A program made the translations under genes and the position numbers. From the IMG/VR virus record IMGVR_UViG_3300025282_003863, positions 1 through 52,809 of that record: a stretch of DNA of 52,809 bases; one strand, 5' to 3'. The notes under the pieces are model-generated. The model saw only the letters and a program-made list of their open reading frames with translations, did not search any database and was not told where the DNA came from. Origin of the DNA: a virus. Position 1 is the stretch's first letter; each line of letters opens with the position of its first letter. Of this stretch, positions 11,260 to 42,618 are shown piece by piece.

Positions 11260-12014
11260 AAGTTGAATATACTGACAGAATGGGGAACAATATGTTTCAG
11301 TATTCGACTGGAAGAATATTGGCGGAAGGTCTTGGTTTTGAATTGATATGCAGACCCATACAGGGGTTTGAGGCAACAAATGAAAGCGTGCATGGAAAAA
11401 GATACGAGCACCCAATTGAGGTTGTAGACGGATATAATTCTCGTTTGGATTATAATTATTTACAGGAATACTTAGAGAATAATTCTAGTAGGAAAATAAT
11501 TGTAAAGGGGCATCTTCAAAAGTATCAATATTTTAAACACCACAAAAAAGAGTTGAGAAGGTGGTTTAGACAGCCAGACTATTATCCATTCATATCTAAA
11601 GATGACCTAGTTATTCATATACGACTGGGAGATTATTTTGAGCATAACGTTGATAGCTCAACTCACTGCTTGAGTAAAGAGTACTATCAAAAGGTCATAG
11701 ACCTAGCAAATCCTAACAATGTGTTTGTTGTAACAGAAGAGCCATATCATGAATTTATTGTAGAGTTTTCAAAAAAAACAGGATGTCAGGTAATCTCTCA
11801 AAACTCAATAAAAGACTTTGCGTTTATAAGCTCCTTTAATAAGATATGTATATCTAAATCTACTTTCTCTTGGTGGGCTGCATTTCTATCGGATGCAGAA
11901 GAAATATACATACCAAATGCTTCACATGGAATATGGTGCTGGGAAGAGTGTCGTGGAGAAGGAATAGACCTATTTGTTGATGATGAACCTAGATATATAA
12001 ATGTAGAGTGTTAA
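11250..12014 (+). CDS. GT11-type alpha-1,2-fucosyltransferase
   Basis: A 254-residue protein, a little shorter than typical GT11 members (about 280-300). The N-terminal MGNNMFQYSTGR (residues 11-22) is the GT11 signature loop. VIHIRLGDY (121-129, with His123, Arg125 and Asp128) is the HxRxxD GDP-fucose site, and ISKSTFSWWAAFL (about 206-218) is the third conserved motif. It should transfer L-fucose from GDP-fucose, most likely to a galactose or similar residue; the acceptor is inferred from the family only. It overlaps the GT2 gene by 10 bases and the HAKG paralogue by 1 base (TAATG). GDP-fucose synthase is encoded in the minus-strand island. Confidence 0.85.
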   Translation: MSVEVEYTDRMGNNMFQYSTGRILAEGLGFELICRPIQGFEATNESVHGKRYEHPIEVVDGYNSRLDYNYLQEYLENNSSRKIIVKGHLQKYQYFKHHKKELRRWFRQPDYYPFISKDDLVIHIRLGDYFEHNVDSSTHCLSKEYYQKVIDLANPNNVFVVTEEPYHEFIVEFSKKTGCQVISQNSIKDFAFISSFNKICISKSTFSWWAAFLSDAEEIYIPNASHGIWCWEECRGEGIDLFVDDEPRYINVEC

Positions 12015-15595: not shown

Positions 15596-16378
15596 CTATG
15601 CCTCAATTTCTATGTACCTCTTTGATTTTACAGGGAACTTTTTTGATATCTTATTTAGCTCTGTTAGTATCAAGGACAGAGTTTGCCTCTTGTTTTTTTC
15701 AGATATATTTTTATTTATCTGCTTGACCCTAATCATGCAATAGCCTTTTGAGAGGATAAGGCCAGACTTCTTGGCGTCCGACCTTATATTCTTTTGGAGG
15801 CTGTCTTCTCCCCATATAGGAAGAAAGTGTGCTGGACCGTCGATTTCTATAGCCGTCTTCAAGGACGGAACGAACAGGTCCACCTCCAAGTTCTCAGCCG
15901 GAATCAAACCCTTCATGTGAAATATAACGTCGTACCCTTCGCTTGTCAAGCCTTGTTTCAGGAATTTCTCAATTTTGGAACCCTCCTGACTGGCCCTGCG
16001 AACAGCTTCCGCCGCCATGCTCCGCAATTCGAACTTCTCGTTCTCTGTCATTTCGTCCCACTGTCGTTTAGCCAGTTCAATCCTTCGTTCTCTTTCTTCT
16101 TCTGGCATATTTTCCCAGTGATTAGCCATGCCCTCGCTAATTTTGATTCTTTCTTCTTCTGTTCTCTTTCGTCCCTTCGTCGGATGCTTATGTCTTCCAG
16201 ACTTAAGAGCGTTTGACTGAGCCTCGCTCTTGCTCTTTAAGTCTACCCCAAGAAACTTCAGTGCTCGCCTGACCTTGTTGGGATATGTTCCCAGCTTCTC
16301 AGAAATCCAGTACGTGCTTCTATCGTTCTCTACATATTCTCTGACTAGGAAATCCTTGTTGTCTTCAGCAAATCTCAT
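15596..16378 (-). CDS. Vsr-like (EDxHD-type) homing endonuclease
   Basis: A 260-residue protein. The N-terminus (about 10-45) is a helix-turn-helix typical of homing-enzyme DNA-recognition modules, and KGRKRTEEERIKIS (about 68-81) resembles a NUMOD3 motif. The C-terminal domain (about 135-240) is of the very-short-patch-repair/DUF559 fold: LEVDLFVP (Asp167), AIEIDGPAH (Glu178, Asp180, His184) and PIWGEDSLQKN (Asp192), matching the EDxHD pattern of I-Bth0305I-type nucleases. It lies free-standing between the glycan island and the SAP protein, overlapping its upstream neighbour by 14 bases. It probably spreads itself or adjacent genes; the target is unknown. Confidence 0.75.
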   Translation of the reverse strand: MRFAEDNKDFLVREYVENDRSTYWISEKLGTYPNKVRRALKFLGVDLKSKSEAQSNALKSGRHKHPTKGRKRTEEERIKISEGMANHWENMPEEERERRIELAKRQWDEMTENEKFELRSMAAEAVRRASQEGSKIEKFLKQGLTSEGYDVIFHMKGLIPAENLEVDLFVPSLKTAIEIDGPAHFLPIWGEDSLQKNIRSDAKKSGLILSKGYCMIRVKQINKNISEKNKRQTLSLILTELNKISKKFPVKSKRYIEIEA

Positions 16379-16838
16379 TGTTTATAGTCTCCATCATTTT
16401 TTTGATATTAAAATCTTCTACTATAGAAGAAGGCGTCTTGTTGCAGTAATTCTTTATAGCCTTGGAGTGACTTTCACTTCGGGCGACAAGAACAACTGAC
16501 TTGTCTATAAAAGCTCGTATGCTGTGTTCATAGTTTCTTCCAGTGTCTCTCATCCATTCCAAGTCCCATACATAGAATATTTTCTTAGACGGAGAGATAG
16601 ATTTAATCGCTGTGAGGCATGTAGAAATGCTGGTTGCTATTAAAGTCCCATCAAAGTAGGGAAGTTCTGTAGTGTTCATAACAGCAAATCTGGGTGGAAG
16701 AACATGCGAAGTTATATTTTGAACAAATATCGTATAATCATTTGTACTGTCTTCAGAAACTATTTCGTTTAGCTTTTTAACCAAGCAATAAGAAAGATGC
16801 GAAGCGCTTAGGTCTTCTATTATTATTCCAATTTTCAT
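16365..16838 (-). CDS. Short GT-B-like glycan protein
   Basis: A 157-residue protein beginning MKIGIIIEDLSASHLSY, a Rossmann strand and turn as in GT-B glycosyltransferases, followed by VWDLEWM and a VLVARSESHSKAIKNYCN segment like the interdomain region of GT4 enzymes. It is less than half of a normal GT-B enzyme and lacks the C-terminal nucleotide-sugar domain. It is either a half-enzyme working with another subunit or a specialised stand-alone domain; no frameshifted remainder is visible next to it. The start overlaps the cupin gene as ATGA. Confidence 0.45.
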   Translation of the reverse strand: MKIGIIIEDLSASHLSYCLVKKLNEIVSEDSTNDYTIFVQNITSHVLPPRFAVMNTTELPYFDGTLIATSISTCLTAIKSISPSKKIFYVWDLEWMRDTGRNYEHSIRAFIDKSVVLVARSESHSKAIKNYCNKTPSSIVEDFNIKKMMETINNEIC

Positions 16839-17218
16839 CTAAAGTGTCTCCTAGCTTCTAAAAATGACGACATATCTTCTATATAGTCAGACTTATCGTA
16901 TGGAGTAGAACATATCGAAAGCAATACATCATCACCGGTCATAAAAACTTGTGAATCCCAAATCATTTTGTCAACAAATATGGCGTCATTAGGAGTAAGA
17001 AGCTTCTTAAACAATTTCTTTCCATCGTGGAGTTTTACTATAATCTGTCCCTGCACACACACTAAAATTTGTTGCGTTCTGAAGTGGGCGTGATTCCCTC
17101 TTTCCTCTCCCTTGGGAACATTAGTTACATAGAACACCCTCTTTGCTTCAAAAGGAAGTTCTGAGAATTCTATCGGAACCAATGTTCCGTTATCGTCAGA
17201 TAAGATATGAAGACGCAT
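16835..17218 (-). CDS. FdtA/WxcM-like sugar 3,4-ketoisomerase (cupin)
   Basis: A 127-residue single-domain cupin matching dTDP-4-keto-6-deoxyglucose 3,4-ketoisomerases (FdtA, QdtA, TylM-type). The family landmarks are LSDDNGTLVPIEF at the N-terminus, KRVFYVTNVPKGEERGNHAH (the catalytic His pair, about residues 30-49), QILVCVQGQIIVKLHDG and a late AIFVDKMIWDSQ. These enzymes move the keto group so that an aminotransferase can make a 3-amino-3,6-dideoxyhexose. The next gene upstream is exactly such an aminotransferase, as in fdtA-fdtB pairs. I chose the ATG at 17218, which fits the family N-terminus; ATGs at 17227 and 17251 are also in frame. Confidence 0.78.
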   Translation of the reverse strand: MRLHILSDDNGTLVPIEFSELPFEAKRVFYVTNVPKGEERGNHAHFRTQQILVCVQGQIIVKLHDGKKLFKKLLTPNDAIFVDKMIWDSQVFMTGDDVLLSICSTPYDKSDYIEDMSSFLEARRHFR

Positions 17219-18143
17219 GGGTGACATCCACGATATATTTAATTTGTTCATCTGTTAACTGTTCATGAAAAGGTAAACTTACTGTCTCCTTACTCGCTTT
17301 CTCAGAAAGGGGCATAGGTTCTCCACAGTTTAATGCATCCATCTCATATACTTTGTGGTTATGCAAACACCTGTAATGTATTCCGCAAGAGATTTCCTTC
17401 TTCTTCATATGATTTACAAACAGGTCGTTGTTAGAGACACGAATCCTATATAAATGATTACTAGTATTCTTCAGAGAGAAAGCTTCATTATATAGTTTTC
17501 TAATCTCAGACATCCTCTCTTGCTTCTCATCAAGCCTCTTAAGATTTTCGTTGGCTATATAAGCCTGAATTGAATTTGGGTGCATCTTCCACCCACACAA
17601 CTCAATGTTTCTTTCCCAGTTATTGTGACGACTATTTGTCCCATTCATGACAAACATTTTAAAATGGTCGATTATTCCCTCGTCATCAGACACAATCATT
17701 CCACCATCGCATCCACCCACGGGCTTTGTAGGATAGAAGCTAAATATCATAGTGTCTATTTCATTGTCGGATTCGTTTTTAAACTGGTTTCTTTCTACCT
17801 TCTGAGCAGAGTCCACTGTCTTTTGCTTAAACAGGTTTGAATAGCAAAGTGTATATGAATCACCAACCCAGTCGACATCATCCGTAAAAGTAAAATACGA
17901 ATTGGAATTTATGATTGCGTTTGGAACTACATTGGGTATCATGCTGGGTATTGTAAAAGTTCTTGTAAATATTTTTCCTACCAGATATATTAGACTGGAG
18001 GCACTGTTTGCCATGCATGCATATTTTGCACCTACGTAATCAGCAAACCTTTCTTCAAACTCAGTTACAATTTTATCATGAAGAAGATTTGAAAATATAG
18101 AGGTATCTATTGTGTAGTTATTTATATGTGCGAAGTTAATCAT
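17196..18143 (-). CDS. DegT/DnrJ/EryC1-type sugar aminotransferase
   Basis: A 315-residue PLP-dependent aminotransferase, somewhat shorter than the usual 360-390. It has EFEERFADYVGAKYACMAN followed by SASSLIYLVG (the phosphate-binding Ser-rich loop) and FSFYPTKPVGGCDGGMIV, whose Lys (about residue 140) is the expected Schiff-base lysine. Near the C-terminus are GIHYRCLHNH and VSLPFHEQLTDEQI, both standard for the family. Beside the FdtA-like cupin it probably adds an amino group at C3 of a dTDP-sugar (FdtB-like); a PseC-like C4 reaction is the alternative. The ATG at 18143 overlaps the upstream stop by 8 bases. Confidence 0.8.
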   Translation of the reverse strand: MINFAHINNYTIDTSIFSNLLHDKIVTEFEERFADYVGAKYACMANSASSLIYLVGKIFTRTFTIPSMIPNVVPNAIINSNSYFTFTDDVDWVGDSYTLCYSNLFKQKTVDSAQKVERNQFKNESDNEIDTMIFSFYPTKPVGGCDGGMIVSDDEGIIDHFKMFVMNGTNSRHNNWERNIELCGWKMHPNSIQAYIANENLKRLDEKQERMSEIRKLYNEAFSLKNTSNHLYRIRVSNNDLFVNHMKKKEISCGIHYRCLHNHKVYEMDALNCGEPMPLSEKASKETVSLPFHEQLTDEQIKYIVDVTHASSYLI

Positions 18144-18774
18144 TTTTGATAAGCATAACATTCAGGGCATGATAATCAGAACATCCAATGATTTCATCAG
18201 ACTTACATAAATATCCGTGCTCCTTCAGTAGGTTGAAGAATCTTGATACGTTATGTCTATATTCATAAGTATCTATAACATTATAAGCTCTGTAAACCCT
18301 ATAGTTACTTAGCTCAGCAGTTAGGTTAATTCTTTGAAGCAGCAAAAATTTACAGGAAAGAGACAGGAGATGTTCTAGAGCCTCATCTCCGTTTGGAAGA
18401 ATATCCAAAAGGCCATTGACAACAATTACATCTCCATCCTCCATGTCGGAAGGAGATATATCTTGATACTTAGCCAGTCTAAAATCAGTATCTGAAGGCC
18501 AACTTCCTCTAGCAATTTCTAGGGCGCTATCAGAATAATCATATCCCACGTAAGACATTTCGGGAAAGTGTTTTCTTATAAGTTCAGAATAAACACCGGC
18601 CCCACAGCCAATATCAACCAGTCTCCTTGCGTCACATTTGGTTGTCAAGAATTCTAGGGACTTAACCAAATGTTTCCAGTGGACGGGATACGAGGACTGT
18701 AGCTCTCGCATATTAAGAGAAAGCTGCTGCTTGAAAACGTCGGCAGAATCTCTCCAAGAGTTGACGTGTTCCAT
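18136..18774 (-). CDS. Class I SAM-dependent methyltransferase
   Basis: A 212-residue methyltransferase with motif I RLVDIGCGAGVYSELI (about residues 50-65), motif II YVGYDYSDSALEIA (about 75-88) and DGDVIVVNGLLDILP (about 112-126) as motif IV. The C-terminal part mentions CSDYHALNVMLIK, typical of small sugar or peptide methyltransferases in polysaccharide clusters. An AGGAGGGG ribosome-binding site lies in the last codons of the upstream gene, just before the ATG at 18774, which decides the start over the in-frame TTG at 18798. Its substrate is unknown. Confidence 0.75.
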   Translation of the reverse strand: MEHVNSWRDSADVFKQQLSLNMRELQSSYPVHWKHLVKSLEFLTTKCDARRLVDIGCGAGVYSELIRKHFPEMSYVGYDYSDSALEIARGSWPSDTDFRLAKYQDISPSDMEDGDVIVVNGLLDILPNGDEALEHLLSLSCKFLLLQRINLTAELSNYRVYRAYNVIDTYEYRHNVSRFFNLLKEHGYLCKSDEIIGCSDYHALNVMLIKND

Positions 18775-19500: not shown

Positions 19501-20157
19501 TTATGCTCCGTCTGTATCTATAAAATGCTGTGGTACTGGCTCTACAAAATCTGTCGACTTATCTCTTTTAGCGAAACAATAAATCATGCAATCGTTTGGT
19601 ATAAATTCTATGAAAGAACCAGAGTGTTCTTGAAATTTCATACAGCTTGTAGATGCTTCGTTTAGGTAGGTATTGTTCGGGTCGAAAACATGCCATTGGT
19701 TTACTTGTCTGGTTTTAGTTCCCATCCCTAAAATCTCAAAGTTATTGGCCCTATAAAAATCTCTAAACAAAGCAGGGCTTAAAGAATAAAACCCCCTTCC
19801 ATAGAATCCAGATAGGTTGCCCGTGTGTACTATGCAGGAGGACTCTTTAAGCAGGGACAGGATATTTTTCCAAACCATGGCTATGTTGAAGCAGCAGTAC
19901 AAGGTTCCAGAATCTATCACCCAGTCATACTGTGAACAAAGCTCTTCTGGCACAGGGTCGTTTAGATTTATTTTGTGGGTAGGATTTCCATTGATATCAA
20001 AAGTGTGTACGGTGTCGAAGCCTAGAAGGTTCTTAAATTCATCCATTCCAGACAGGCTATGCAGAGAAACATCCCCGAGTATCGCACAGCTAGTTCCCTC
20101 TGGATTCGATTCTCTAAATCGAAGGAGCATTTTCATATCTGAATGTTCTATGGACAT
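19501..20157 (-). CDS. Degenerate methyltransferase-like protein
   Basis: A 218-residue protein with an atypical Rossmann pattern: CAILGDVSLHSL (about residues 24-35) stands where motif I should be but lacks the GxGxG loop. VHTFDINGNPTHKINLN (about 50-66) resembles motif II with its acidic residue, and YDWVIDSGTLYCCFN (about 77-91) resembles motif IV. Related sequences of this kind accompany glycosyltransferases in virus genomes. It may be a divergent methyltransferase or a protein that has lost SAM binding. The start overlaps the upstream stop by 10 bases with AAGGGA just upstream. Confidence 0.5.
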   Translation of the reverse strand: MSIEHSDMKMLLRFRESNPEGTSCAILGDVSLHSLSGMDEFKNLLGFDTVHTFDINGNPTHKINLNDPVPEELCSQYDWVIDSGTLYCCFNIAMVWKNILSLLKESSCIVHTGNLSGFYGRGFYSLSPALFRDFYRANNFEILGMGTKTRQVNQWHVFDPNNTYLNEASTSCMKFQEHSGSFIEFIPNDCMIYCFAKRDKSTDFVEPVPQHFIDTDGA

Positions 20158-20981
20158 CGTTGTCCCTTGTAGTGTCTGTATATCATGACCTTAAGCTCTG
20201 CCATGTCTGGCTCATGTATATTTCGAATACCGTCTGGAACTTCTTCAACAATCTTCTCAGCGGATATTGGTACGTAGTCTTCTATCTTATAGACATTGTG
20301 ATACTCACAAAACGCCTCTGCCAAATTGTGGAGCTTGACTCTGTGACAGCTATCAAGACTTATGTACGAAGACTTGGTGTCTAGATTCTCTAAGATTTTT
20401 TTGGCAACGTCGCTTGCGCTAACAAAATATCTCACGGTGTCATTGATGTTAACCCTTATAGGCTCCTTGTTTTTTATGCAGCTGTGCCATATTTCCAGAA
20501 CGCTGCCACTGGAGAAGAAAAAGTTCACGCCCTGTATGACAGAGAAGCTGTTCTCTAGCATCACCTTCTCCATAAGAAGTTTTGTAGAACCGTATACACA
20601 GGAAGGGTTTATGGCTTTGTCAGTACTTACAGCAACAACATTTTTTACCTTGTTTTTTTTAGCCACACTAATTATATTTCTACTGCCGTTAATATTTACT
20701 TCTATAGCTTTTGTGGGATTGTTTTCACATATACCTATATGTTTCATGGCAGCACAGTGTACTATATACTCAACATTGTTCTGCTCTACGATTCTATCTA
20801 AAATTTCAGCATCCGTAGATATGTCCACGCAGTAAGATTTTACTTCTGGATGTTCTAACTGCATCTCTTTGTCTCGTATTTCAGAATGAGACAATACTAT
20901 AACATCCATATCGTTGTTCAAGCATTCTCTCAGTAGGCTTCTGCCTAAAAACCCGGTCCCGCCGGTTATAAGTATTGTCAT
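20148..20981 (-). CDS. PseB/CapD-like nucleotide-sugar 4,6-dehydratase
   Basis: A 277-residue extended short-chain dehydrogenase. GGTGFLG (residues 7-13) binds NAD(P), and VSTDKAINPSCVYGSTK (about 118-134) carries the STDKA plus YGxTK signature of inverting UDP-GlcNAc 4,6-dehydratases such as PseB and FlaA1, with Asp121, Lys122, Tyr130 and Lys134 all present. The protein is about 50 residues shorter than PseB (about 330). It could provide a UDP-4-keto-6-deoxy sugar for amino-sugar or pseudaminic-type synthesis, which fits the aminotransferase and NeuB/NeuA genes in the same island. The ATG at 20981 directly follows the upstream TAA; an earlier start would overlap it by 59 bases. Confidence 0.7.
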   Translation of the reverse strand: MTILITGGTGFLGRSLLRECLNNDMDVIVLSHSEIRDKEMQLEHPEVKSYCVDISTDAEILDRIVEQNNVEYIVHCAAMKHIGICENNPTKAIEVNINGSRNIISVAKKNKVKNVVAVSTDKAINPSCVYGSTKLLMEKVMLENSFSVIQGVNFFFSSGSVLEIWHSCIKNKEPIRVNINDTVRYFVSASDVAKKILENLDTKSSYISLDSCHRVKLHNLAEAFCEYHNVYKIEDYVPISAEKIVEEVPDGIRNIHEPDMAELKVMIYRHYKGQRCP

Positions 20982-20982
20982 G

Positions 20983-21777
20983 TTAACTCCCGAAAGGCAT
21001 TCCGCATATGGGGTTTCCAGCGGGAACGTCCATGTTGTCACATATTTTTAAAAACGGAGAGGCGGCTTTTGCACTCATAAAGTATACTCCCTCAACATCA
21101 CTGTCCCAAGAGGCGTATCCTTTTTGATGTTCTTCTTGATTTATAGATTTATATAGCGAGAGCATTTCCGACTTGATTTTTGAATCGACTTTAAACTGGT
21201 AGAAATATTCTGGAGTAATAGTGGAACAGTCAACTATATGATGTCCGTAGCCGGTATGAGGTATGGATTCACACGAAGAATAATTTATCAAGTGGGTTCC
21301 TCCGTCTCTTTTCATATGCATCAGCAACGGTTTTAATGAATAATACCTTATGACAACTGTTGAAAAGAACCCAAAGGGAACATCCTTATCTTTACAGAGA
21401 TAAAATAACCCCGCAAATAGCTGAGCATGTTGGCCATTAAGATGTTCGTCGCCGTGGAAGGGGTGGGTTATTATAACATCTATATCTTCAGGATTTAGTT
21501 CTAGACTTTCAAGACCGTTGACAAAAGACTTTGGGAATTCATGAAGGGGAATTCCACCTCTTTCTGGAATATCTTCATCGCCAACGTACCAATTATTTAT
21601 TCCAATTAGATTCATAACGCTTTCAAATTCTTTATATCTCTCTGGATGATGCCTTCCGGTTGCGCACAAAACATAAGGCTCTACTTCCTCTCTATTGCTG
21701 AGGAAATTTAGAATGCCTCCTATCCACAAGCTTTCGTCATCTGGATGGGCAACCACGAATAGTATCTTGTGTGCCAT
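20983..21777 (-). CDS. LmbE/PIG-L-type N-acetyl-sugar deacetylase
   Basis: A 264-residue zinc deacetylase. The N-terminal ILFVVAHPDDESLWIGG (about residues 5-21) is the AHPDDE motif binding zinc and the catalytic base, and VIITHPFHGDEHLNGQH (about 105-121) supplies the other histidines. Members remove an acetyl group from N-acetylglucosamine on lipids, thiols or sugar intermediates. In this island a free amino sugar could be the substrate of later acylation or sulfation, which is inference. The gene starts 14 bases after the sulfotransferase stop. Confidence 0.82.
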   Translation of the reverse strand: MAHKILFVVAHPDDESLWIGGILNFLSNREEVEPYVLCATGRHHPERYKEFESVMNLIGINNWYVGDEDIPERGGIPLHEFPKSFVNGLESLELNPEDIDVIITHPFHGDEHLNGQHAQLFAGLFYLCKDKDVPFGFFSTVVIRYYSLKPLLMHMKRDGGTHLINYSSCESIPHTGYGHHIVDCSTITPEYFYQFKVDSKIKSEMLSLYKSINQEEHQKGYASWDSDVEGVYFMSAKAASPFLKICDNMDVPAGNPICGMPFGS

Positions 21778-21791
21778 TGTATTTCTTTATT

Positions 21792-22502
21792 CTAGAAAGT
21801 ATACTTTAGTAAATCTAAATCTTTTTCATACATACGCTCTACAATTTTTTTGGTCGTAGAATCGTACATTTCTCTATAAGGAGGTCTTCCGGCAGAGACA
21901 TTGTGGGTTCGATATCCAAAGCCTCGTGCAGGAATGCTTGCATTAACGTCAATAATTAAACACAGAAGAGAAAAGTCATCAGTGAAGTTTTCAAAACTGC
22001 CAACGAAGTCCAGTTTAAATTTGTCTTCTTCATCAAAAATATACATATGTTGAGGGCAGAAATGTATTTTGTTTCCGGTGGGAACCTTCATGAATTCGTC
22101 ATTGTTAAAAAAGTCGCCTGTAAAATAAGGGGTTGGGGCAGGATAGACACAAATCGCATTAGAGACTAGCTCTTCAGCCTCTAGAAGAAAGGTTTTAAAA
22201 CTATAAGTATCCTTCAAATTTCTCATTCGTGTAAGCTGCCAGTAATACTGAGAAACCATTCGGTCGTAAGGGTTTCTGACAAAAGAAAACTTAAAATAAT
22301 TTTTTTCTTCTTCCGGTCTGTATTGATAAAATATTTCAAAGGGGTAGTGCTGGGCTGGTCCATGTTTAAGAGTGCCAAACATTACCGTATCATTATCGGC
22401 ATTCATGGTCTTATTGAATAGTCCAAGGTACTTTTCAACGGTAGTTCCTGCCGTTTTAGTAATGTGAAAAAATGTTATTTTACGACGATGGCAAGTAGGC
22501 AT
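21792..22502 (-). CDS. PAPS-dependent carbohydrate sulfotransferase
   Basis: A 236-residue protein of the Sulfotransfer_2 group (chondroitin 4-O-/uronyl 2-O-type). The 5-prime-phosphosulfate loop is FFHITKTAGTTVEKYL (about residues 11-26) and the 3-prime-phosphate site is FSFVRNPYDRMVSQYYW (about 72-88, with Arg76). CPQHMYIF (about 142-149) and the Arg/His-rich C-terminal stretch are typical too. It should transfer sulfate from PAPS to a glycan hydroxyl; the PAPS must come from the host. There is no signal peptide or membrane anchor, so it acts in the host cytoplasm. The start overlaps the methyltransferase stop by one base (TAATG). Confidence 0.85.
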   Translation of the reverse strand: MPTCHRRKITFFHITKTAGTTVEKYLGLFNKTMNADNDTVMFGTLKHGPAQHYPFEIFYQYRPEEEKNYFKFSFVRNPYDRMVSQYYWQLTRMRNLKDTYSFKTFLLEAEELVSNAICVYPAPTPYFTGDFFNNDEFMKVPTGNKIHFCPQHMYIFDEEDKFKLDFVGSFENFTDDFSLLCLIIDVNASIPARGFGYRTHNVSAGRPPYREMYDSTTKKIVERMYEKDLDLLKYTF

Positions 22503-23203
22503 TATACCTTCTTTAGAATTACTGCCAGATATTCTTTGGTAAGATGTTTAGCTATTATCTTATAATTTAAACTACTAGAATGAGATTCATAAAAACGAAG
22601 CCATTCTTCCGAAGTTTTTACATTAATGTGCGCAGCAGAGAAGCCGTTATTTATGCAGACACCATCAGCCCAAGCATCTTCGCAAGCGTTTTCATGAACC
22701 ACGTATTGTCTGGATACTCTAACAGCCTCCTTTAGACAATCTTCTTCCCATTCTTTTGGTATATGCTCCATTCCATCAAGATGTTGTACCAAATCAAAGG
22801 AACTGTCTGAGAATCTCTTGAGTTTTTTTGCATTTCCTTTAAAAACCTTGCCCCTTATTTCTGGAAAATTAGATTGAGAAATTTTAATAAACTCTTTAGA
22901 GATGTCTACACCGTATGCGTCTACGCCTTGCGCTATAAGCCAACTCATACAACCACCGGGTCCAGAGCCTACATCCAGCACTTTAAAGGGGCGGTCCTGT
23001 TTGCCTCCCCATGATATTATCTGAGAGTATACTACGGATACGTGACCAAGCTCTTTGGTTGTTCTTATGACCTGTTTATCTCTATGAAAATCCGAGCCAT
23101 AATTACAACTGGCAACAAGATAGTCATACTTAGCAGCTTCTGATATCTCCAGTTTCTGGTCTTCAGAAAGTTCTTCAAGTTTTTTATGTTCACCGGGAAT
23201 CAT
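22502..23203 (-). CDS. Class I SAM-dependent methyltransferase
   Basis: A 233-residue Methyltransf_11-type protein with textbook motifs: VLDVGSGPGGCMSWL (about residues 74-88, motif I), AYGVDISKEFIKIS (about 95-108, motif II) and FDLVQHLDGMEHIPKEW (about 131-147, motif IV). An N-terminal extension of about 70 residues precedes the domain. It resembles small-molecule or sugar methyltransferases. The start overlaps the GT4 stop as ATGA and the end overlaps the sulfotransferase start by one base, so the three are probably translated together. Confidence 0.78.
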   Translation of the reverse strand: MIPGEHKKLEELSEDQKLEISEAAKYDYLVASCNYGSDFHRDKQVIRTTKELGHVSVVYSQIISWGGKQDRPFKVLDVGSGPGGCMSWLIAQGVDAYGVDISKEFIKISQSNFPEIRGKVFKGNAKKLKRFSDSSFDLVQHLDGMEHIPKEWEEDCLKEAVRVSRQYVVHENACEDAWADGVCINNGFSAAHINVKTSEEWLRFYESHSSSLNYKIIAKHLTKEYLAVILKKV

Positions 23204-24249
23204 ATCTTAAGCTCCGAGTAAAATTTATTATAATGTTCTTCGGTAGTCATGTGGCCATTGTAAAGCCTGCTGTCTACCCAAGGCAGTTCAGTATAGTGAG
23301 ACGGAAGCCTACTGACTAAGTCATCAGTATTAATTAGTTCTCCATCGAACTCTTGTCCATGCAGAGAATATAGTTTATCAAAATAAATCTTTAGCTGTTC
23401 TAAGCCCCTATCTTCTCTATATCCATTAGCGAGAGACTCCGTATCGAATGAAAACTTGTCATGGTTTTCAACCGCGCGAATAAGGCATTCATTGGCATTG
23501 TTATAGTCTTCCCAAACCACGGAGTTGCCGTCTGTTAAGAAGTCTTTTCCACTTCCAAGCTGGCCAGCATACATGACTACCGGTATCTCAGTCAGCAAAG
23601 CCTCTGCAATCACTCCGGGGCTTCCCTCACAATCTGAAAACAGGGTTGCACATTTGGAAGACTGGTAAAAATAAGAAAGCTGAGTTTTGCTCAGTCCTTT
23701 AAATTCTAAATTTTGAGCCAGTCTCATGAGTGTAAACAACTGTCTCTCTTCTTTTGAGAACATGCGATAGTACGCATCCTCTATATCCATAAAATGGTCT
23801 TCTGGCGTGTCTTCATGTCTCTTTGGGGAAATCAAAAGAACCTTGTATTTATACCCTTTACCGTATATCTTTTTTATTTCTCTAAAGAATATGTCTAGCT
23901 TCTTGACATTAGCTGCTCTAGAAATATTAATTATGTCCCAGTACTTTTTTACTTCGGGGTCTTTTCTAAAAACGGTGGATGTAAAGTTAGAGCTTACAAT
24001 TGGAATTTCAAAAGCGTCTGGATATCTTCGTGATATATCTGTTACTGAAGGTCTTCCCATAAAGAAGCTGGCAAAGCCCGGATATGGAGCGCCATTAGAA
24101 AATCCACCATAGTGGACACCTATGAAATATTTTTCGCTTATCCTGTTCATCATATCAGGATAATGGTCTTTGCCCCTGTAGGCTTCTTGGTGAGAAATTA
24201 CTACGATTCCTTTGGCGGAATCTGTGGGGCGTTTGAATATATGGGCCAT
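23200..24249 (-). CDS. GT4-like glycosyltransferase
   Basis: A 349-residue GT-B enzyme. The N-terminal domain contains GIVVISHQEAYRG and IGVHYGGFSNG. The C-terminal domain shows the usual GT4 donor site: FKGLSKTQLSYFYQSSKCATLFS (shortened here as LSKTQLSYFYQ), then DCEGSPGVIAEALLTEIPVV (about residues 207-226), in which the Glu of EAL replaces the second Glu of the EX7E motif, and a G-S-G-K-D loop. The acceptor is unknown. The start overlaps the NeuA-type gene by one base (TAATG), linking it to nonulosonate activation. Confidence 0.7.
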   Translation of the reverse strand: MAHIFKRPTDSAKGIVVISHQEAYRGKDHYPDMMNRISEKYFIGVHYGGFSNGAPYPGFASFFMGRPSVTDISRRYPDAFEIPIVSSNFTSTVFRKDPEVKKYWDIINISRAANVKKLDIFFREIKKIYGKGYKYKVLLISPKRHEDTPEDHFMDIEDAYYRMFSKEERQLFTLMRLAQNLEFKGLSKTQLSYFYQSSKCATLFSDCEGSPGVIAEALLTEIPVVMYAGQLGSGKDFLTDGNSVVWEDYNNANECLIRAVENHDKFSFDTESLANGYREDRGLEQLKIYFDKLYSLHGQEFDGELINTDDLVSRLPSHYTELPWVDSRLYNGHMTTEEHYNKFYSELKI

Positions 24250-24881
24250 TATAACATATTGCCTATGAGGACTAGGTCTTCTTCTGTATCTATTTGAAAA
24301 CTCTTATACAGTGGCATTTCCACCACTCCAATATTTCCGCTATATCTTAGTTTCGACTGCAATAAATTGTCCTTCTTTGTTATATAGAAAGCTCCGTTCT
24401 CAACATATTTCTCATCCATTTGTTGTCGCATCGGCCTGTTGTTGGCATCCCATCCATCTGGGTTAACCTCTTTTGTCCATCTCGGAACCCAGTGCTCTTT
24501 ATATACACTAAAAACAGAGTCGTACTCATTCATCATTTGAATACCTCTATCTATATATGCAGACTCTAGGAGTGGGGAGGTTGGTTGTATAAAGACCAGT
24601 ATATCAAAATCAACGTTATCACAAAAATGAAGAAGTGTTTCTTCACTCTGTGAATAGTCCTTGGAAATTTCTGCTGGCCTGTCTATTACCATTGCTCCGC
24701 ACTCAATTGAAACCCGCTTGATTTCATCATTATCAGTTGAAACCCAAGTCTCCTGAGATTCTGAATTAAGAGACGCCTGTATCGCATAATGAATAAGAGG
24801 CTTCCCGTTTAGGGGAGCTATGTTCTTATTGGGGATTCCTTTGCTTCCTCCCCTCGCCGGTAGAAGAGATACTGTTCTCAT
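24249..24881 (-). CDS. neuA: CMP-nonulosonate (sialic acid-type) cytidylyltransferase
   Basis: A 210-residue nucleotidyltransferase of the NeuA/PseF/LegF family, which couples CTP to a nonulosonic acid. The N-terminal LLPARGGSKGIPNKNI (about residues 6-21) is the CTP-binding loop; WVSTDNDEIKRVS, SEETLLHF, FIQPTSPLL (about 96-104) and a late FQIDTEEDL carry the other conserved positions. The length is typical for the bacterial catalytic domain alone. Directly upstream is the NeuB-type synthase (ATGA overlap) and next to that a GT29 sialyltransferase-type gene. Which nonulosonate is used cannot be told from the sequence. Confidence 0.88.
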   Translation of the reverse strand: MRTVSLLPARGGSKGIPNKNIAPLNGKPLIHYAIQASLNSESQETWVSTDNDEIKRVSIECGAMVIDRPAEISKDYSQSEETLLHFCDNVDFDILVFIQPTSPLLESAYIDRGIQMMNEYDSVFSVYKEHWVPRWTKEVNPDGWDANNRPMRQQMDEKYVENGAFYITKKDNLLQSKLRYSGNIGVVEMPLYKSFQIDTEEDLVLIGNML

Positions 24882-25705
24882 TTCCTAAGCTTATCCCTGA
24901 CTAGTTTCTCACCTTCTGTTATTTTCTTGACCCCATCCCCCAGAGCCATCTCTAGTTCTCGTATTCCCTTCACAAGTTTTATTAATCCGTGAGGTTCTAC
25001 AGAGCACATCTGGTCCGTTCCCCACATTGTCCTGTCTAGAGTTATGTGTCTTTCGATTACCGTTGCTCCAAGACAAATGCTCGCTATTGTAGTTGTTAAG
25101 CCGAACTCGTGGCCGCTATATCCAACCTCGCACTCATATCTTTCCTTAAGTCTAGATATACATCTAAGGTTTATGTCTTCAATTGGAGCCGGATATGTAG
25201 AGTTGCAGTGCAACAAAGAAAAATCATGACCATCCAAGCAATCTACAGCTAAGTCAATCTCTTCTACTGTACTCATTCCGGTAGACAAAACTATTTTTTT
25301 ATCTAGAGACTTACATGCCTCTATTAGTTCATGGTCCGTCAGTAAAGCCGAGGGAATCTTTACTAGGGAAATATCATAGTCTCGTATAAAATCTAAACTG
25401 TCCAAATCCCAAACCGATACAGACCAGTCGATGCCAATATTTTTACAGTGAGACTGTATTTCTTTATACTCGGTCTCGCCAAATTCCATCCTGTGTTTAT
25501 ATTCAATATAGGTCATGTCACCCCAAGGGGTGTTCTTAATTGTTCCCTTTTGATGTTCTGGCACGCATACGTCGGGATTTCTTTTCTGAAATTTTACTAC
25601 ATCACATCCAGCAATCTTAGAAATGTCAATTAATCTCTTGGCGACATCTAAGTCTCCATTGTGATTAATTCCTATTTCAGATATTATTGTTATGTTACTT
25701 TTCAT
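24878..25705 (-). CDS. neuB: NeuB-type nonulosonate synthase lacking the SAF domain
   Basis: A 275-residue TIM-barrel synthase that would condense PEP with a hexosamine derivative. The conserved features are ISEIGINHNGDLDVA (about residues 8-22), VVKFQKR, VKIPSALLTDHEL, STGMSTVEEI, LLHCNSTYPAP (about 184-194), VGYSGHEFG and ERHITLDR (about 223-230). The protein ends right after ALGDGVKKITEGEKLVRDKL, where normal NeuB (about 345 residues) continues into the SAF/antifreeze-like domain that closes the active site of the partner subunit. No SAF domain is encoded nearby. Sialic, legionaminic or pseudaminic acid are all possible products. Confidence 0.85.
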   Translation of the reverse strand: MKSNITIISEIGINHNGDLDVAKRLIDISKIAGCDVVKFQKRNPDVCVPEHQKGTIKNTPWGDMTYIEYKHRMEFGETEYKEIQSHCKNIGIDWSVSVWDLDSLDFIRDYDISLVKIPSALLTDHELIEACKSLDKKIVLSTGMSTVEEIDLAVDCLDGHDFSLLHCNSTYPAPIEDINLRCISRLKERYECEVGYSGHEFGLTTTIASICLGATVIERHITLDRTMWGTDQMCSVEPHGLIKLVKGIRELEMALGDGVKKITEGEKLVRDKLRK

Positions 25706-26322
25706 TTGTAAAATATAACCAACCCTTCATTTACCCATTTAGAGATTACTTGTCTCTCCTCTGTAAAAAGATGACTGCTAACAGAATTTAGCTCCCAGTA
25801 ATGCACACAGCCCTCTTCACCGACCCCAAATCCAAAAATGGTGGGCCTAAGCCCGCTCTTTATAAGAAGCCACAGAAACCCAAAGCCAGCGCTTGGTCTG
25901 GTTCCGTTTGTCATGGGGGTTAGGTTGGAATAAATTGTGTCATAGTTAGACAAAAACGGTTTAGAAGTTTCGTGTATATTTTGTTCTCTGTTTACCCATC
26001 CCGGTTCTCCCCCAGAAGCGCCCGGACCCAACCAAACAACATTAATATTTTCTTGCTCTTTTATAAAGAAGGTTGGCTGGCCATCTGTTTCCCATCCTGT
26101 GTGTGGAATGTTTCCAAAAACATGATTGTTTGCAACCCTTATGGTTGTCTTCGTTCCAACATGTTTTTCATATCCATCAGTTGGCGCCCTGTTGAATCTA
26201 ACAACGTCATCAAAGCTGTCGATAAGTTCGCCGTACTCCGTTGTTAAAAGCCTTGGGCTTGAGGCGACAATGGCAACGTTTTCACTTACATTAAGCTCTG
26301 GTTCTATGTGCTGGACAATCAT
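25702..26322 (-). CDS. GT29-type sialyltransferase
   Basis: A 206-residue soluble protein carrying counterparts of all four GT29 sialylmotifs. L motif (residues 16-62): VAIVASSP, then YGELIDSFDDVVRFNRAPT and VGTKTTIR. S motif (about 143-166): PSAGFGFLW to IFGFG. Motif III: HYWE (174-177). VS motif: His184 and Glu189 in SHLFTEE, with His184 the expected catalytic base. It lacks the membrane anchor and the Cys of the L-to-S disulfide of animal enzymes, as suits a cytoplasmic enzyme. It should transfer a sialic-acid-type sugar from the CMP-donor made by the NeuA gene two positions downstream. The start overlaps the preceding stop as ATGA. Confidence 0.85.
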   Translation of the reverse strand: MIVQHIEPELNVSENVAIVASSPRLLTTEYGELIDSFDDVVRFNRAPTDGYEKHVGTKTTIRVANNHVFGNIPHTGWETDGQPTFFIKEQENINVVWLGPGASGGEPGWVNREQNIHETSKPFLSNYDTIYSNLTPMTNGTRPSAGFGFLWLLIKSGLRPTIFGFGVGEEGCVHYWELNSVSSHLFTEERQVISKWVNEGLVIFYK

Positions 26323-27200
26323 ACATACTTCCTAAGCTGAGAGTCAAACCTTTGTTTTAGAAATTCCATATTTTCTTGTACAATCTGGGGATGTTCTGCA
26401 TCAAACATCTTGGTTCTGCATTCTCCCCTGAACTGAGGTTTGAATTCGTGAACTCCGTTGTAATGATTTTCTATTGATTCTTTTCCGTTGTCTTCAGAGG
26501 TTACCCACGGTAAATAAACGTTGGAAAAGTAATCGTCTATACAGTTATCCATACTAACAGCAGCTTTATAGTATTGGACCTTGTTATATACTTGGTCTGG
26601 AAAAACATAAGAGTAGTGATACATTCTTATGCCATGATTCTCCCAAAGCCATTTGAAGTCCATGTGGCTCTCGGGCCAAGCGTGGGGGCTTGTGTGGGCC
26701 ATCGTGGGCGGTCTGTGGGTCTTCCAGCGAGAGCCGGGGTAAACCTTACAGATGCGGCGAAACTCGGCGTTTTCCTCAAACCCGCCAAGGATTCTGTCAA
26801 ACCCTCCATAAAAGCTACAGCTTTGAAATCCGGCGGTTGTAAACCTGTGGTCAGTTAGCAGCTTGATTATGGTTTCGATATCCTCCGGTTTAAATATCTC
26901 ATCCGAGTCAAGGTTCCAGACATAATCACACGACGGGTCTAGATGCTTCATGTATGCAGAGCATTGTTCGTCCTTCTCAGAGTATTGTCCACGAACAATT
27001 GTAATCTTTCCTTCTGGGTCTGGGAAAGATTGTAAAATCTCATTTGTTTCATCCGTTGAGGTTGTAAACCCCTGCGACTGCCAATACCCAACCGGACCCT
27101 CTGCTATGAGAATCTGGTGGGCAAACGGATACACGGACTTTAGGCACTCTTCTAGAACAAAGCCGCCATTAAACACAATCATCCCGAAGGCTATTTTCAT
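26319..27200 (-). CDS. GT-A glycosyltransferase
   Basis: A 293-residue family-2-like enzyme. The N-terminus MKIAFGMIVFNGGFVLEECL is the usual first strand and helix. YVWNLDSDEIFKPEDIE (about residues 93-109) contains the metal-binding DSD. The C-terminal part is rich in His, Trp and Tyr (WKTHRPPTM, MYHYSYVF), as in GT2-like enzymes of phage and capsule clusters. The DNA coding for about residues 125-185 is visibly more GC-rich than its surroundings. It overlaps both neighbours by 4 bases. Confidence 0.72.
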   Translation of the reverse strand: MKIAFGMIVFNGGFVLEECLKSVYPFAHQILIAEGPVGYWQSQGFTTSTDETNEILQSFPDPEGKITIVRGQYSEKDEQCSAYMKHLDPSCDYVWNLDSDEIFKPEDIETIIKLLTDHRFTTAGFQSCSFYGGFDRILGGFEENAEFRRICKVYPGSRWKTHRPPTMAHTSPHAWPESHMDFKWLWENHGIRMYHYSYVFPDQVYNKVQYYKAAVSMDNCIDDYFSNVYLPWVTSEDNGKESIENHYNGVHEFKPQFRGECRTKMFDAEHPQIVQENMEFLKQRFDSQLRKYV

Positions 27201-28135
27201 AATACATACTTCTTTTTAGTTTCTGTCATGTGGTGCATATAGTCTACATAAATATCTTCAACACCCGGATGGCTACGAATACCCGGACCCCACTCCCCTC
27301 CTCTATCCATCGAAAAAGAGTTTTCATTATAGTTAGGAGAGAAGTGACTAAAGTGGTTGAACACAATGTCCTGCTCCAGAGTATCAGAATCTTTGAGAAC
27401 ATAGTGTAGAGGGTCTCGCCAGACTACTCTAGTTAGACTGGAGAAATCAAACATTGTGAAGTTCCAAGGGGCGCCATTTCCTACCTTGTGGCAAAGAATT
27501 TGTATGCTATCTGGGTCAAAGAACTCTTCAAATAGCTCAAGATACTTTTGGTCTCCGCAAGAACCAAATATATCAGAGAACTGGTTGTTTGGGTGTATGC
27601 AACAGTCTCTCCAAAATCTAAGACAGGACTTTCCTATGGAATCATTTCTAAAATAAACAATCCCAACATTAAAATAGCCCGGATTTCTGGCTGTCTTATT
27701 GAGTTCGATATGTTTGTGAGTTATTACCCCTATGCTTTTCCCCTCGACGGCCTCTGTAATTCTCTCAGCAGAGTCGTAAAAGAAAATATCAGAGTCTGCA
27801 TACAAAACGTGCTCAAGGCTAAGCCTTAGCATCAAAAAGTGACAGAAGAAAGACGCCAGCATCCAGTGGAACGGGCTTTGCCCATCGCTTGTATCGATTG
27901 GTCTGGACTCATTATTCTTCTTGAGGATTTCGAAGTTGGGGTCTTTTTCTATATCTTCAAGAGTATAGACAACTAGGTTTGGAAGCTCAAGCTCTCTGAG
28001 TTTGTCTTCAGTAAATGAATCCATTGCAAGATAATACAGTGTGAAATTGTCACCTGTGTACTTGACAAGAGAGTCATACAGACATAGTCCGTTTATTATA
28101 TAGTTTCTATCGCTAAGGGTTAGTACGTTAATCAT
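27197..28135 (-). CDS. GT8-like nucleotide-diphosphosugar transferase
   Basis: A 312-residue GT-A protein. INVLTLSDRNYIINGLCLYDSL (residues 2 onward) resembles the start of GT8-type enzymes, which call up the sugar nucleotide while 'standing in place'. The metal site is LYADSDIFFYD (about residues 115-125), a DSD motif, and GYFNVGIVYFRND (about 153-165) is the conserved FNxG segment. A C-terminal FNHFSHFSPNY provides the late His. The donor is probably a UDP-sugar by family precedent. It overlaps the FkbM gene by 8 bases. Confidence 0.7.
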   Translation of the reverse strand: MINVLTLSDRNYIINGLCLYDSLVKYTGDNFTLYYLAMDSFTEDKLRELELPNLVVYTLEDIEKDPNFEILKKNNESRPIDTSDGQSPFHWMLASFFCHFLMLRLSLEHVLYADSDIFFYDSAERITEAVEGKSIGVITHKHIELNKTARNPGYFNVGIVYFRNDSIGKSCLRFWRDCCIHPNNQFSDIFGSCGDQKYLELFEEFFDPDSIQILCHKVGNGAPWNFTMFDFSSLTRVVWRDPLHYVLKDSDTLEQDIVFNHFSHFSPNYNENSFSMDRGGEWGPGIRSHPGVEDIYVDYMHHMTETKKKYVL

Positions 28136-28769: not shown

Positions 28770-29589
28770 TTGGAAATATCTCCAGTTCCTGATGGCATCC
28801 CACAACGTTGGAAAAATCTATGGATTCCAAAGATATGGTTTCTCCATCTATGTATCTACGATTCATGTCTTTCAAAGAGATTCCAAATTTTTCACCGGCC
28901 CGATTTTTAGAATCGCCCGCTATATTGATTGGGATGTTCACCACACAGCTATGCTGGAGGCAGCAAATATATGGCGGCAGAACCTTCGTATGATTGGTTC
29001 CATCGCCCTCAAGATTGTTTGGATTAGAAAATTGATATTTTGACAGAAGCTGTTGTATTTCAGTCTTTCTGTACACATGGCCGTCTACGGAAAAGGGATA
29101 GTAAAAATTGCTCAGCATGCCAGTGTAGTTCTTCCAATCCCAAACAAAGAAGTTGTCTTTATATATAGCAACCTTCTTCGGTGTTACGCAAACCTGTCCG
29201 GTATATTGGTCTTGAATAGTAGTGTTCTCGCCAAGCCTGAATGATAAGCACCCAATGTTTTCAACTGAGTCAAACAATTCTTTTATATCATCCCTGCCTA
29301 CATGTGACGGCCTATAAAATATGTCGTCATCTGTAAAGAAGCAGACCAGATTTTCTGATTTGTCAACAGTGTCCAGAGTATCTTTTTGAAAGTCTTCTTC
29401 TTGAATCCAGTTTACCCCGTCGTATCCGGGGAAGCTTCTCTGGGCCATTTGGTAGCCTATCTTATGTTCCTCATCTGTGTACTTATATATTACATTTGTT
29501 CCAGACAGAAGGAAATTTTTAGATAAGCTATGCAGAAGAAGATGAAGCTGAGATGCTCGGTCTCTACTAAAAATTATGGATGACAGCAT
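28759..29589 (-). CDS. GT-A-like glycosyltransferase
   Basis: A 276-residue protein. SSIIFSRDRASQLHLLLHSL (residues 3 onward) is a family-2-type first strand and helix, and LVCFFTDDDIFYRPSH (about 81-96) carries a TDDD acidic site. A Cys-His-rich stretch (YICCLQHSCVVN) lies at about residues 206-217. Related proteins are common in phage and algal-virus glycan clusters. Substrates are unknown. It overlaps the GDP-fucose synthase stop by 23 bases. Confidence 0.62.
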   Translation of the reverse strand: MLSSIIFSRDRASQLHLLLHSLSKNFLLSGTNVIYKYTDEEHKIGYQMAQRSFPGYDGVNWIQEEDFQKDTLDTVDKSENLVCFFTDDDIFYRPSHVGRDDIKELFDSVENIGCLSFRLGENTTIQDQYTGQVCVTPKKVAIYKDNFFVWDWKNYTGMLSNFYYPFSVDGHVYRKTEIQQLLSKYQFSNPNNLEGDGTNHTKVLPPYICCLQHSCVVNIPINIAGDSKNRAGEKFGISLKDMNRRYIDGETISLESIDFSNVVGCHQELEIFPNAN

Positions 29590-30541
29590 TCTTATTTTCC
29601 CTAAACCATTTTATAGTTTTTTTCATCCCCTCTTCGAGGCTTGTTCTTGCCATAAAAGAAAATTCCTCTTTGGCCTTACTCACATCCAGACATCTTCTCG
29701 GCTGACCATTAGGTTTAGAGGTGTCAAAAACTATCGTTCCATCAAACCCCATAAGCTTTGCAATCAGGCCGACTAAATCCTTAATTGTGATTTCTCTTCC
29801 CGTTCCAATGTTTACGGGGTCTGGCTTGTTGTAATAACGAATAGCATCAACGATGGCTTTTGCGCAATCTTCCACGTAAAGAAACTCCCGTGACGCCTCT
29901 CCATTTCCCCAGACGCTAACGACGCTGCTTTCGTTATCTATAGCCTCTTGAAATTTTAATATCAGCGCAGGAATAACATGACTGTATTCTGGATTAAAAT
30001 TATCGTGAGGCCCATACATGTTTACAGGGACCAAAGTAATGCCATTAAAATCATACTGTTTCCTATAAGCCTGTAGCATTTCCATGAGAGCTTTCTTGGC
30101 TATCCCATAGGGAGCATTGGTCTCTTCGGGATACCCGTCCCACATATCTTCCTCTTTAAAAGGAACTGGGGTGTGCTTGGGGTATGCGCAAACCGTGCTG
30201 ACCAAAAGAAATTTTTTACATCCCATTTTTCTAGACTGTTCAATCAGGTTCAGGCCCATTGCCATGTTCTCGTAGAAAAACAAGCCGGGATACCTTTGGT
30301 TTGCTCCTATTCCTCCGACTCTAGCAGCTAGATGTATTATCGTATCTGGCTTGTAGGTTTTAAGAACATGTATACAGTCTACTTCTTTTGCCAGATTGAG
30401 AGAAAAGCTTTCACTAGAGCCGCCTAGTTCAATTATCTCGTTATGCTCCTCTGGTCCGTCGTCTGTAAAAGACTGTTTCTTTAGCTCTGAGGAGACGTGT
30501 CTTCCAAGAAATCCATAAGCTCCCGTAACTAATATTCTCAT
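29567..30541 (-). CDS. fcl: GDP-L-fucose synthase
   Basis: A 324-residue NADPH-dependent epimerase/reductase converting GDP-4-keto-6-deoxymannose to GDP-L-fucose. GAYGFLG (7-13) binds NADP. The active site has VSTVCAYPK (114-122, including Cys118), and APYGIAKKA with Tyr145 and Lys149. AARVGGI (72-78) and NMYGPHDNFN followed by HVIPALI are hallmarks that separate Fcl from other epimerases. Gmd, the preceding enzyme, is not in this window. Two fucosyltransferase-type genes on the plus strand are the logical users of the product. The ATG at 30541 overlaps the upstream TGA (ATGA), so I prefer it to the in-frame start at 30580. Confidence 0.88.
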   Translation of the reverse strand: MRILVTGAYGFLGRHVSSELKKQSFTDDGPEEHNEIIELGGSSESFSLNLAKEVDCIHVLKTYKPDTIIHLAARVGGIGANQRYPGLFFYENMAMGLNLIEQSRKMGCKKFLLVSTVCAYPKHTPVPFKEEDMWDGYPEETNAPYGIAKKALMEMLQAYRKQYDFNGITLVPVNMYGPHDNFNPEYSHVIPALILKFQEAIDNESSVVSVWGNGEASREFLYVEDCAKAIVDAIRYYNKPDPVNIGTGREITIKDLVGLIAKLMGFDGTIVFDTSKPNGQPRRCLDVSKAKEEFSFMARTSLEEGMKKTIKWFRENKNAVIHNF

Positions 30542-31590
30542 ACTCTTGTCTCCATAAATTTCACGAGGGCTTGTTTGCAATCAGTTTTTTCTTTCTCCAA
30601 GGACAGTTCGCCACATATCTGCATTACTCTATGGAAATAAGTATGCTTGTTTATTACGGTTTCGTATCCTCTTTCAATGTATTCCAGCCTTTCTCTCGGG
30701 TTATTTAGAAAGTGATTAACCAAGTCAAAGAACTCTTCTGGAGTTTTTGCAAAGGGAACCTCGTTATTTGTATAAACTTCCTCCGCTAAAGAGGACACAT
30801 AATCAGAAATACAAAAACACCTATTCGATAGAATTTTAAAAGTTCTTTCATTTATGTCTATTCCAAAGTCCTGAGCGTGTGGCTCGCTTATGTTAGGACA
30901 AATAGTAGCTGATGCCATTACGTCCTTTACAACACCGTCCGAAACAAATCCCAAGTATTGCGTACTTGGCCAAGGCTGGTTACCGAATATCTTTACGTTA
31001 TACTTATCTACTGGATAGAGAAAGGGCATAAAGTATCTATTAAAGCTTTTGCTTTTATATCCCCAGTATCCCCCAACAAAAGACATGTCGCTTCTTAGAT
31101 GGGGGACTTCTCTACCATTGGTGTAATCAAAAATGTCTGCGGCGTTCAAAAGGCCCACAGACCTGACCCCAAGATTTTCCCATCCGTTGTGGGTTCTTTC
31201 AATACATTTCTGTGTGTAGTGAGCAAAGACAAAGTCGGGCTTTCCCGTTTGTCTTTTTAAGGCTTCTACGTAATGCTTATCTTTATCAGATACAAATAAA
31301 ACATTGTACTTTTCTGGGTCTATATCTTTTTGTATATCACCCCAGTCCGGGGCTTTCATAATCACTTTCATTTCTGGACGAGCGCTGATGCACTTAATTA
31401 AAGACTCATCTATATTATAAGTTTGACCTATAAATAAGTCTGGTTCAAATTCATCAAAGGCATCGAAAGCATTTTTAGTCTTGATGTCCCACAGGATGGT
31501 TTCGTGACCGGCGTAACTGAAGGCGCTCGCCCAGCCCTTCCTGATAAAGAAGTGCGCGGTAGAACCATCGCTAGATATCATTACTCTCAT
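30538..31590 (-). CDS. CgeB-like GT-B glycosyltransferase
   Basis: A 350-residue protein of the CgeB/DUF3880 type: MRVMISSDGSTAHFFIRKGW (N-terminal Rossmann strand with an RKGW turn), LRSDMSFVGGYWGYKS (about residues 165-180) and IDINERTFKILSNRCFCISDY (shortened: INERTFKILSNRCF, about 246-259), then a terminal HTYFHRV. This pattern matches the glycosyltransferase domain of spore-maturation CgeB proteins and their relatives in surface-sugar clusters. The overlap with the preceding gene (ATGA) ties it into the island. Substrates are unknown. Confidence 0.7.
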   Translation of the reverse strand: MRVMISSDGSTAHFFIRKGWASAFSYAGHETILWDIKTKNAFDAFDEFEPDLFIGQTYNIDESLIKCISARPEMKVIMKAPDWGDIQKDIDPEKYNVLFVSDKDKHYVEALKRQTGKPDFVFAHYTQKCIERTHNGWENLGVRSVGLLNAADIFDYTNGREVPHLRSDMSFVGGYWGYKSKSFNRYFMPFLYPVDKYNVKIFGNQPWPSTQYLGFVSDGVVKDVMASATICPNISEPHAQDFGIDINERTFKILSNRCFCISDYVSSLAEEVYTNNEVPFAKTPEEFFDLVNHFLNNPRERLEYIERGYETVINKHTYFHRVMQICGELSLEKEKTDCKQALVKFMETRV

Positions 31591-42615: not shown

Positions 42616-42618
42616 TAA

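Follow-up and report, generated by a model that had tools for sequence, protein, structure and literature searches.

The window, which is the whole stretch of 52,809 nt of the IMG/VR virus record IMGVR_UViG_3300025282_003863, is a linear fragment that belongs to a phage. On its minus strand a gene for a 206-residue protein of glycosyltransferase (GT) family GT29 is joined to genes for a NeuB-type nonulosonate synthase and a NeuA-type cytidylyltransferase. The 206-residue protein is a member of GT29 by profile, motifs and predicted fold, and the linkage of GT29 to such donor genes is selective and recurs beyond this phage. We consider it likely that the protein is a soluble phage GT29 of the prokaryotic type, which works with the phage's own enzymes for synthesis and activation of the donor and caps a phage-built glycan, likely on virion proteins. 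The three genes are:

25702–26322, minus strand: GT29-type sialyl/nonulosonyltransferase, 206 aa (PF00777, profile match to ST3Gal1, AF2 model, Foldseek); motif L at about residues 16–62, S at 143–165, III at 174–177, VS at 184–189
24878–25705, minus strand: NeuB-type nonulosonate synthase, TIM barrel without SAF domain, 275 aa (PF03102, E 1.1e-75)
24249–24881, minus strand: NeuA/PseF-type cytidine monophosphate (CMP)-nonulosonate cytidylyltransferase, 210 aa (PF02348, CTP_transf_3, E 9.5e-28)

The GT29 protein and its donor genes

The 206-residue protein matched the GT29 model PF00777 with an E-value of 2.7e-18 and 66.8 bits (curated cut-off 23), and the same model was matched at E ≤ 0.01 by all 62 aligned relatives. 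The initial annotation of this DNA had assigned the protein to GT29 by the sialylmotifs L, S, III and VS, and these motifs are real. N44 (L), S144 and G146 (S), H174 and Y175 (III), and H184 and E189 (VS) were invariant in six phage GT29s, and G146, H184 and E189 were also invariant across 50 divergent viral sequences. In the alignment to ST3Gal1, residues N44, S144, G146, H174, H184 and E189 fell on the sialylmotifs, which identifies N44 as the motif L asparagine and H184 as the VS histidine, to which the role of catalytic base is ascribed (PMC10225777). The assignment is not due to chance, since a profile built from 50 viral relatives matched the catalytic domain of pig ST3Gal1 from end to end (2.1e-35). 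ST6Gal1, ST8Sia3 and ST6GalNAc2 were also matched by this profile, with the GT42 enzyme CstII as a weaker match (E 3e-7).

The AlphaFold (AF2) model of the protein had a predicted local distance difference test score (pLDDT) of 91.3 and a predicted template modeling score (pTM) of 0.91. As the annotation would predict, the top 30 of the 31 Foldseek matches in the PDB at E ≤ 1e-3 were GT29 structures, the other one being the GT42 enzyme Cst-I (E 1.3e-4). The modeled fold agreed with ST3Gal1 (2wnb) with a TM-score of 0.70 over the query at 2.8 Å.

A signal anchor and an L–S cysteine pair, which the annotation had named as traits of the Golgi enzymes, are absent from the protein. It begins 15 residues before motif L and its maximal Kyte-Doolittle hydropathy is 1.22 (residue 149); C172 is its sole cysteine, and the cysteine positions of motifs L and S are occupied by V16 and G157. 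Petit et al. 2018 (PMC5811610) presented 23 bacterial GT29 sequences that share motifs L, S, III and VS with the phage protein and likewise have neither a transmembrane anchor nor the cysteines of motifs L and S. The term "stripped-down" in the annotation was therefore misleading, since the phage enzyme simply has the prokaryotic form of GT29. The bacterial proteins, whose function was not predictable in that study, are cellular and in 19 of the 23 cases alphaproteobacterial, whereas the gene in the window is phage-borne and joined to NeuB and NeuA.

The trio is read in the order GT29 (26322–25702), NeuB (25705–24878) and NeuA (24881–24249). Both junctions are 4-base overlaps (ATGA), and the open reading frames (ORFs) together with PF03102 and PF02348 confirmed the arrangement given in the annotation. 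Its statement that GT29 is coupled to NeuB and NeuA was correct for the linkage, which is real and recurrent, but the overlaps are not peculiar to the trio. The start of the GT29 gene is likewise overlapped by 4 bases by the upstream GT2 gene (26319–27200), and the GT4 gene starts on the last base of NeuA (1-base contact). The overlaps are thus a feature of the whole operon.

The NeuB protein reached 257 bits with model TIGR03569 (NeuB_NnaB; cut-off 399.65), in an alignment stopping at position 277 of 329, and 191 bits with the PseI model, which is also below the equivalog cut-off. The window and the related contigs G001 and G002 gave no match for a SAF domain (PF08666). Close viral relatives, in a set picked by similarity to the window NeuB, were mostly short (76 of 81 at 270–299 aa). 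One scan of marine phage contigs revealed at least 545 NeuB relatives, and SAF-less NeuB-type synthases are very common in such contigs. Residues E10, K38, K116, H199, H220 and D231 were invariant in nine phage NeuBs, so the active site of the barrel appears to be kept. The best NCBIfam model for NeuA was PseF (111 bits, cut-off 205.7). We rejected the view that the product is N-acetylneuraminic acid for certain, as NeuB and NeuA scored below every equivalog cut-off.

The 119-kb contig G001 holds the whole window at positions 12536–65344 with about 99.9–100% identity. The phage contigs carry genes for PolIII-alpha, DnaB, primase, a RecA-like protein and sigma, and G001 also has rIIA and ribonucleotide reductase genes. 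This set of genes identifies the source as a phage, as the annotation had assumed; our best explanation takes it as marine and tailed. The replication genes, rIIA and ribonucleotide reductase suggest a lytic phage.

Linkage of GT29 to NeuA and NeuB in other genomes

An alignment scan of viral contigs gave 191 contigs with GT29 relatives, and loci from 80 of them were examined. GT29 abutted NeuA or NeuB in 29 of 72 GT29 clusters (clustered at 90%). Where a donor gene was present in the flank, GT29 was directly next to it at 26 of 36 viral loci, while 4.4 were expected; only 12% of the other genes at these 36 loci abutted the donor gene, and none of 100,000 simulations reached 26 adjacent loci. 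The adjacency label switched 17 times on the GT29 tree, which indicates that adjacency to NeuA/NeuB was repeatedly gained or lost. Bacterial GT29s from Bacteroidota, Planctomycetota and Verrucomicrobiota also abutted NeuA or shared an ORF with it (loci L102, L103, L107, L108, L116).

The related contig G002, from a phage about 95% identical, differs in its donor genes. Its flanks have about 91–97% DNA identity to the window and its GT29 is 84–86% identical, and the place of NeuB-NeuA is taken by NeuA-NeuB of different origin and in reversed order. The NeuB proteins of the two contigs were 39% identical, and for NeuA only a 79-residue match at 32% was found. The donor genes were exchanged while GT29 was retained, which counts in favor of a joint function. 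Over window positions 21792–25702, the comparison with G002 revealed clean block swaps, comprising the NeuB/NeuA block and a sulfotransferase/methyltransferase block.

Several fusions were seen in these loci. The planctomycete locus L116 has a single ORF (1069–2301) matching NeuA and GT29. Methyltransferase-GT29 fusions are present in L072 (412–1515) and L080 (6573–7661), a NeuB-cupin fusion in L023 (7177–8700), and a fusion of NeuB, SAF and a xylose-isomerase-like barrel in L024 (7219–9108).

Proposed function and alternative explanations

In the proposed pathway, NeuB would form a nine-carbon nonulosonate from phosphoenolpyruvate and a six-carbon amino sugar, and NeuA would couple it to CMP. 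GT29, with His184 as the catalytic base, would then transfer the nonulosonate to a sugar acceptor in the cytoplasm with inversion. The acceptor would most likely be a glycan that neighboring phage glycosyltransferases make in the cytoplasm on virion proteins. Other genes of note in the window are:

26319–27200, minus strand: GT2-type glycosyltransferase (PF00535, E 4.8e-7)
27197–28135, minus strand: GT8-type glycosyltransferase (PF01501, E 9e-6)
23200–24249, minus strand: GT4-type glycosyltransferase, after NeuA (PF13692, E 4.2e-6)
21792–22502, minus strand: Sulfotransferase_2 family protein (PF03567, E 1.3e-17)
29567–30580, minus strand: GDP-L-fucose-synthase-like NAD-dependent epimerase (NF047922, E 3.5e-84, under its cut-off)
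20148–21041, minus strand: PseB/CapD-like nucleotide-sugar dehydratase, Polysacc_synt_2 (PF02719, E 1.3e-46; PseB model 125 bits, under cut-off)
17196–18161, minus strand: DegT/PseC-like sugar aminotransferase (PF01041, E 1.9e-33; PseC model 90 bits, under cut-off)
11250–12014, plus strand: GT11-type (fucosyltransferase family) protein (PF01531, E 1.5e-12)
6343–7227, plus strand: protein rich in Ser and Cys, with long, mucin-like runs of serine (translation)

Methyltransferase genes are likewise part of the glycan cluster. In the neighboring plus strand block, which also includes the serine-rich protein, GT genes follow large ORFs which give the impression of tail proteins, with no family match. 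The gene for the Ser- and Cys-rich protein overlaps a GT-like gene, and its product is a possible candidate for the glycan acceptor. Among 46 window ORFs only one, a GT, was just above the usual transmembrane threshold in a hydropathy scan, and export machinery of the Wzx, Wzy or WaaL type was not seen in Pfam scans of the phage. Together with the position of GTs after tail-like ORFs, this argues for a cytoplasmic reaction and for virion proteins as the target. A passage of PMC12619734 cites mycobacteriophages as a precedent for glycosylated virion proteins. Since a gene set of this kind is present in many other phages, some phages probably decorate something with sialic-acid-like sugars, perhaps their own particles.

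Several points weigh against this proposal. The acceptor is not identifiable from sequence, the virion step is drawn by analogy and from the export genes not found, and the transmembrane calls come from a crude hydropathy scan. NeuB lacks the SAF domain of the curated NeuB and PseI models, and its activity or product may differ. No NeuC-type epimerase (PF02350) turned up in the window or in either related contig, and the contigs may be incomplete. With NeuC not found and PseB-like and PseC-like genes present, the sugar could, as far as gene content tells, be of the pseudaminic or legionaminic acid type or depend on N-acetylmannosamine from the host. The cassette can therefore not be called self-contained, as the annotation had done, with neither SAF nor NeuC found in these three contigs. 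Finally, just 5 of the 81 phage NeuB loci had GT29 within 6 kb, so the NeuB and NeuA of phages mostly supply other transferases. Marine phages often carry NeuB/NeuA sets, which have several partners, GT29 among them.

The enzyme might instead modify the host surface. In the cytoplasm of the host, GT29 would then cap lipid-linked precursors of O-antigen or lipopolysaccharide, which a host flippase and ligase would export, and the result would be a block of superinfection or hiding of the cell. Serotype conversion of hosts by phage glycosyltransferases is established, as noted in a passage of PMC12619734, the nearest bacterial GT29 (from Opitutales) lies in a locus with glycosyltransferase-like and methyltransferase-like genes, and the sugar and aminotransferase genes of the phage resemble genes for surface polysaccharides. 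However, no membrane GT of the serotype-conversion type, flippase, polymerase or acetyltransferase was seen in the window, and a lasting change of the surface would be of less use to a phage that is suggested to be lytic. We regard this role as possible but rather unlikely.

It appears improbable that GT29 draws on CMP-sialate or CMP-3-deoxy-D-manno-octulosonate (CMP-Kdo) of the host while NeuB and NeuA supply another transferase of the cluster. Plant GT29-like proteins are thought to use Kdo-like sugars, many viral GT29 loci lack a donor gene within 6 kb, and the low equivalog scores of NeuB and NeuA would also fit. Against this stand the adjacency of GT29 to NeuA/NeuB, which is far more frequent than that of neighboring genes, and the planctomycete ORF that matches both NeuA and GT29. 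The recent gene swaps could also mean that GT29 is a relic or has lost catalysis, and that its presence in a fast-shuffled glycosyltransferase cluster is accidental. This is hardly credible, as the frame is open in four contigs with 84–100% identity, the catalytic His, Glu and Gly are invariant in 50 divergent sequences, and an intact fold is modeled at high confidence.

Should the phage enzymes be active, cytoplasmic GT29s that need no glycosylated stems or disulfides and come with donor synthesis would be tractable tools for chemists. They would also serve as a simple model for the enzyme family behind animal sialosides, and would show that phages attach sialic acid or another nonulosonate to something, most likely to themselves.

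Distribution, origin and known systems

Of 289 Verrucomicrobiota genomes, 5 matched PF00777 at E ≤ 0.001 (4 over the cut-off), as did 3 of 396 Bacteroidota genomes (1 over the cut-off) and 4 of 294 Planctomycetota genomes (all 4 over the cut-off); each phylum count includes a center genome already known to match. A single-sequence scan of genome contigs gave no relative, whereas an alignment of 11 close relatives gave three. No match was obtained in the plasmids scanned. The nearest bacterial GT29, from an Opitutales metagenome-assembled genome (38% identity), has a chromosomal locus. The window GT29 stands among phage GT29s, with this Opitutales protein as its nearest bacterial relative, and we therefore rejected capture of a gene from an animal or a host as its origin.

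Three GT29 queries against 50,697 phage records matched two of them. Within 5 kb, the 484-kb phage LR756508 encodes four GT29s and a NeuB (L008, 5213–10034), which are unannotated in the record. In the cultured Stenotrophomonas phage vB_SmaS-DLP_6 (DLP6), the "hypothetical protein" AAY80_202 (L100, 4941–5732) is a GT29 homologue, and its gene adjoins a nucleotide-sugar transferase gene.

In the GT29 tree, ST3Gal1 and ST6Gal1 grouped with the GT29s of LR756508 and two viral contigs (support 98/94). A clade of eukaryotes and sampled bacteria was rejected by the approximately unbiased test (p-AU 4e-7), for a grouping chosen after the tree was seen. The tree is unrooted and short and includes two eukaryotic sequences; because alphaproteobacterial, plant and protist GT29s are absent from it, the grouping of animal GT29s with those of huge phages is a lead only. 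It is a speculative and doubtful idea that a large share of prokaryotic GT29 diversity resides in phages and that animal Golgi enzymes came from a phage-like or huge-phage-associated lineage, not directly from a gene of the mitochondrial ancestor. The phage enzymes, if active, also widen the prokaryotic side of GT29, and the answer to how eukaryotic sialylation arose hinges on that side.

Vertebrate Golgi GT29s (ST3Gal1, ST6Gal1, ST6GalNAc2, ST8Sia3) have the fold and catalytic residues in common with the phage protein, which is about 21% identical and has no signal anchor or stem. Animal-virus GT29s are presumably captured host genes. In sequence records, viral GT29s are found in an uncultured Caudovirales phage (A0A6J5NLG3, already named GT29 in UniProt), mimivirus ChoanoV1, herpesviruses and squirrelpox virus, and the coccolithoviruses EhV-18 and EhV-156 carry GT29 as well (PMC5371807). 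These genes lie in viral genomes like that of the window, but adjacent NeuB/NeuA was not found described for any of them. The GT42 enzymes Cst-I and Cst-II of Campylobacter jejuni are distant fold kin from another CAZy family, with a match much weaker than that of GT29. GT42 Cst genes lie in bacterial operons with neuB and neuA. A gene of Azotobacter phage TayeBlu was named alpha-2,3/2,8-sialyltransferase, which suggests a GT42-type enzyme, and the available excerpts of its description mention no donor genes (PMC12772287). Anchorless, disulfide-free bacterial GT29 (2018) and a named phage GT29 are thus already known; in the open-access papers searched we found no report of a phage GT29 gene linked to NeuB and NeuA genes of the same phage, or of the recurrence of this linkage.

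Two minor observations concern other parts of the window. ORF 16365–16838 reached 19.7 bits with the LT-IIB model (cut-off 25) and was judged a chance match. DNA polymerase III alpha is encoded in two ORFs within 39596–44541, one with PHP and NTPase parts (42619–44541) and one with the fingers (39596–41266), and the halves are separated by three genes, one of which encodes an RNase_T exonuclease.

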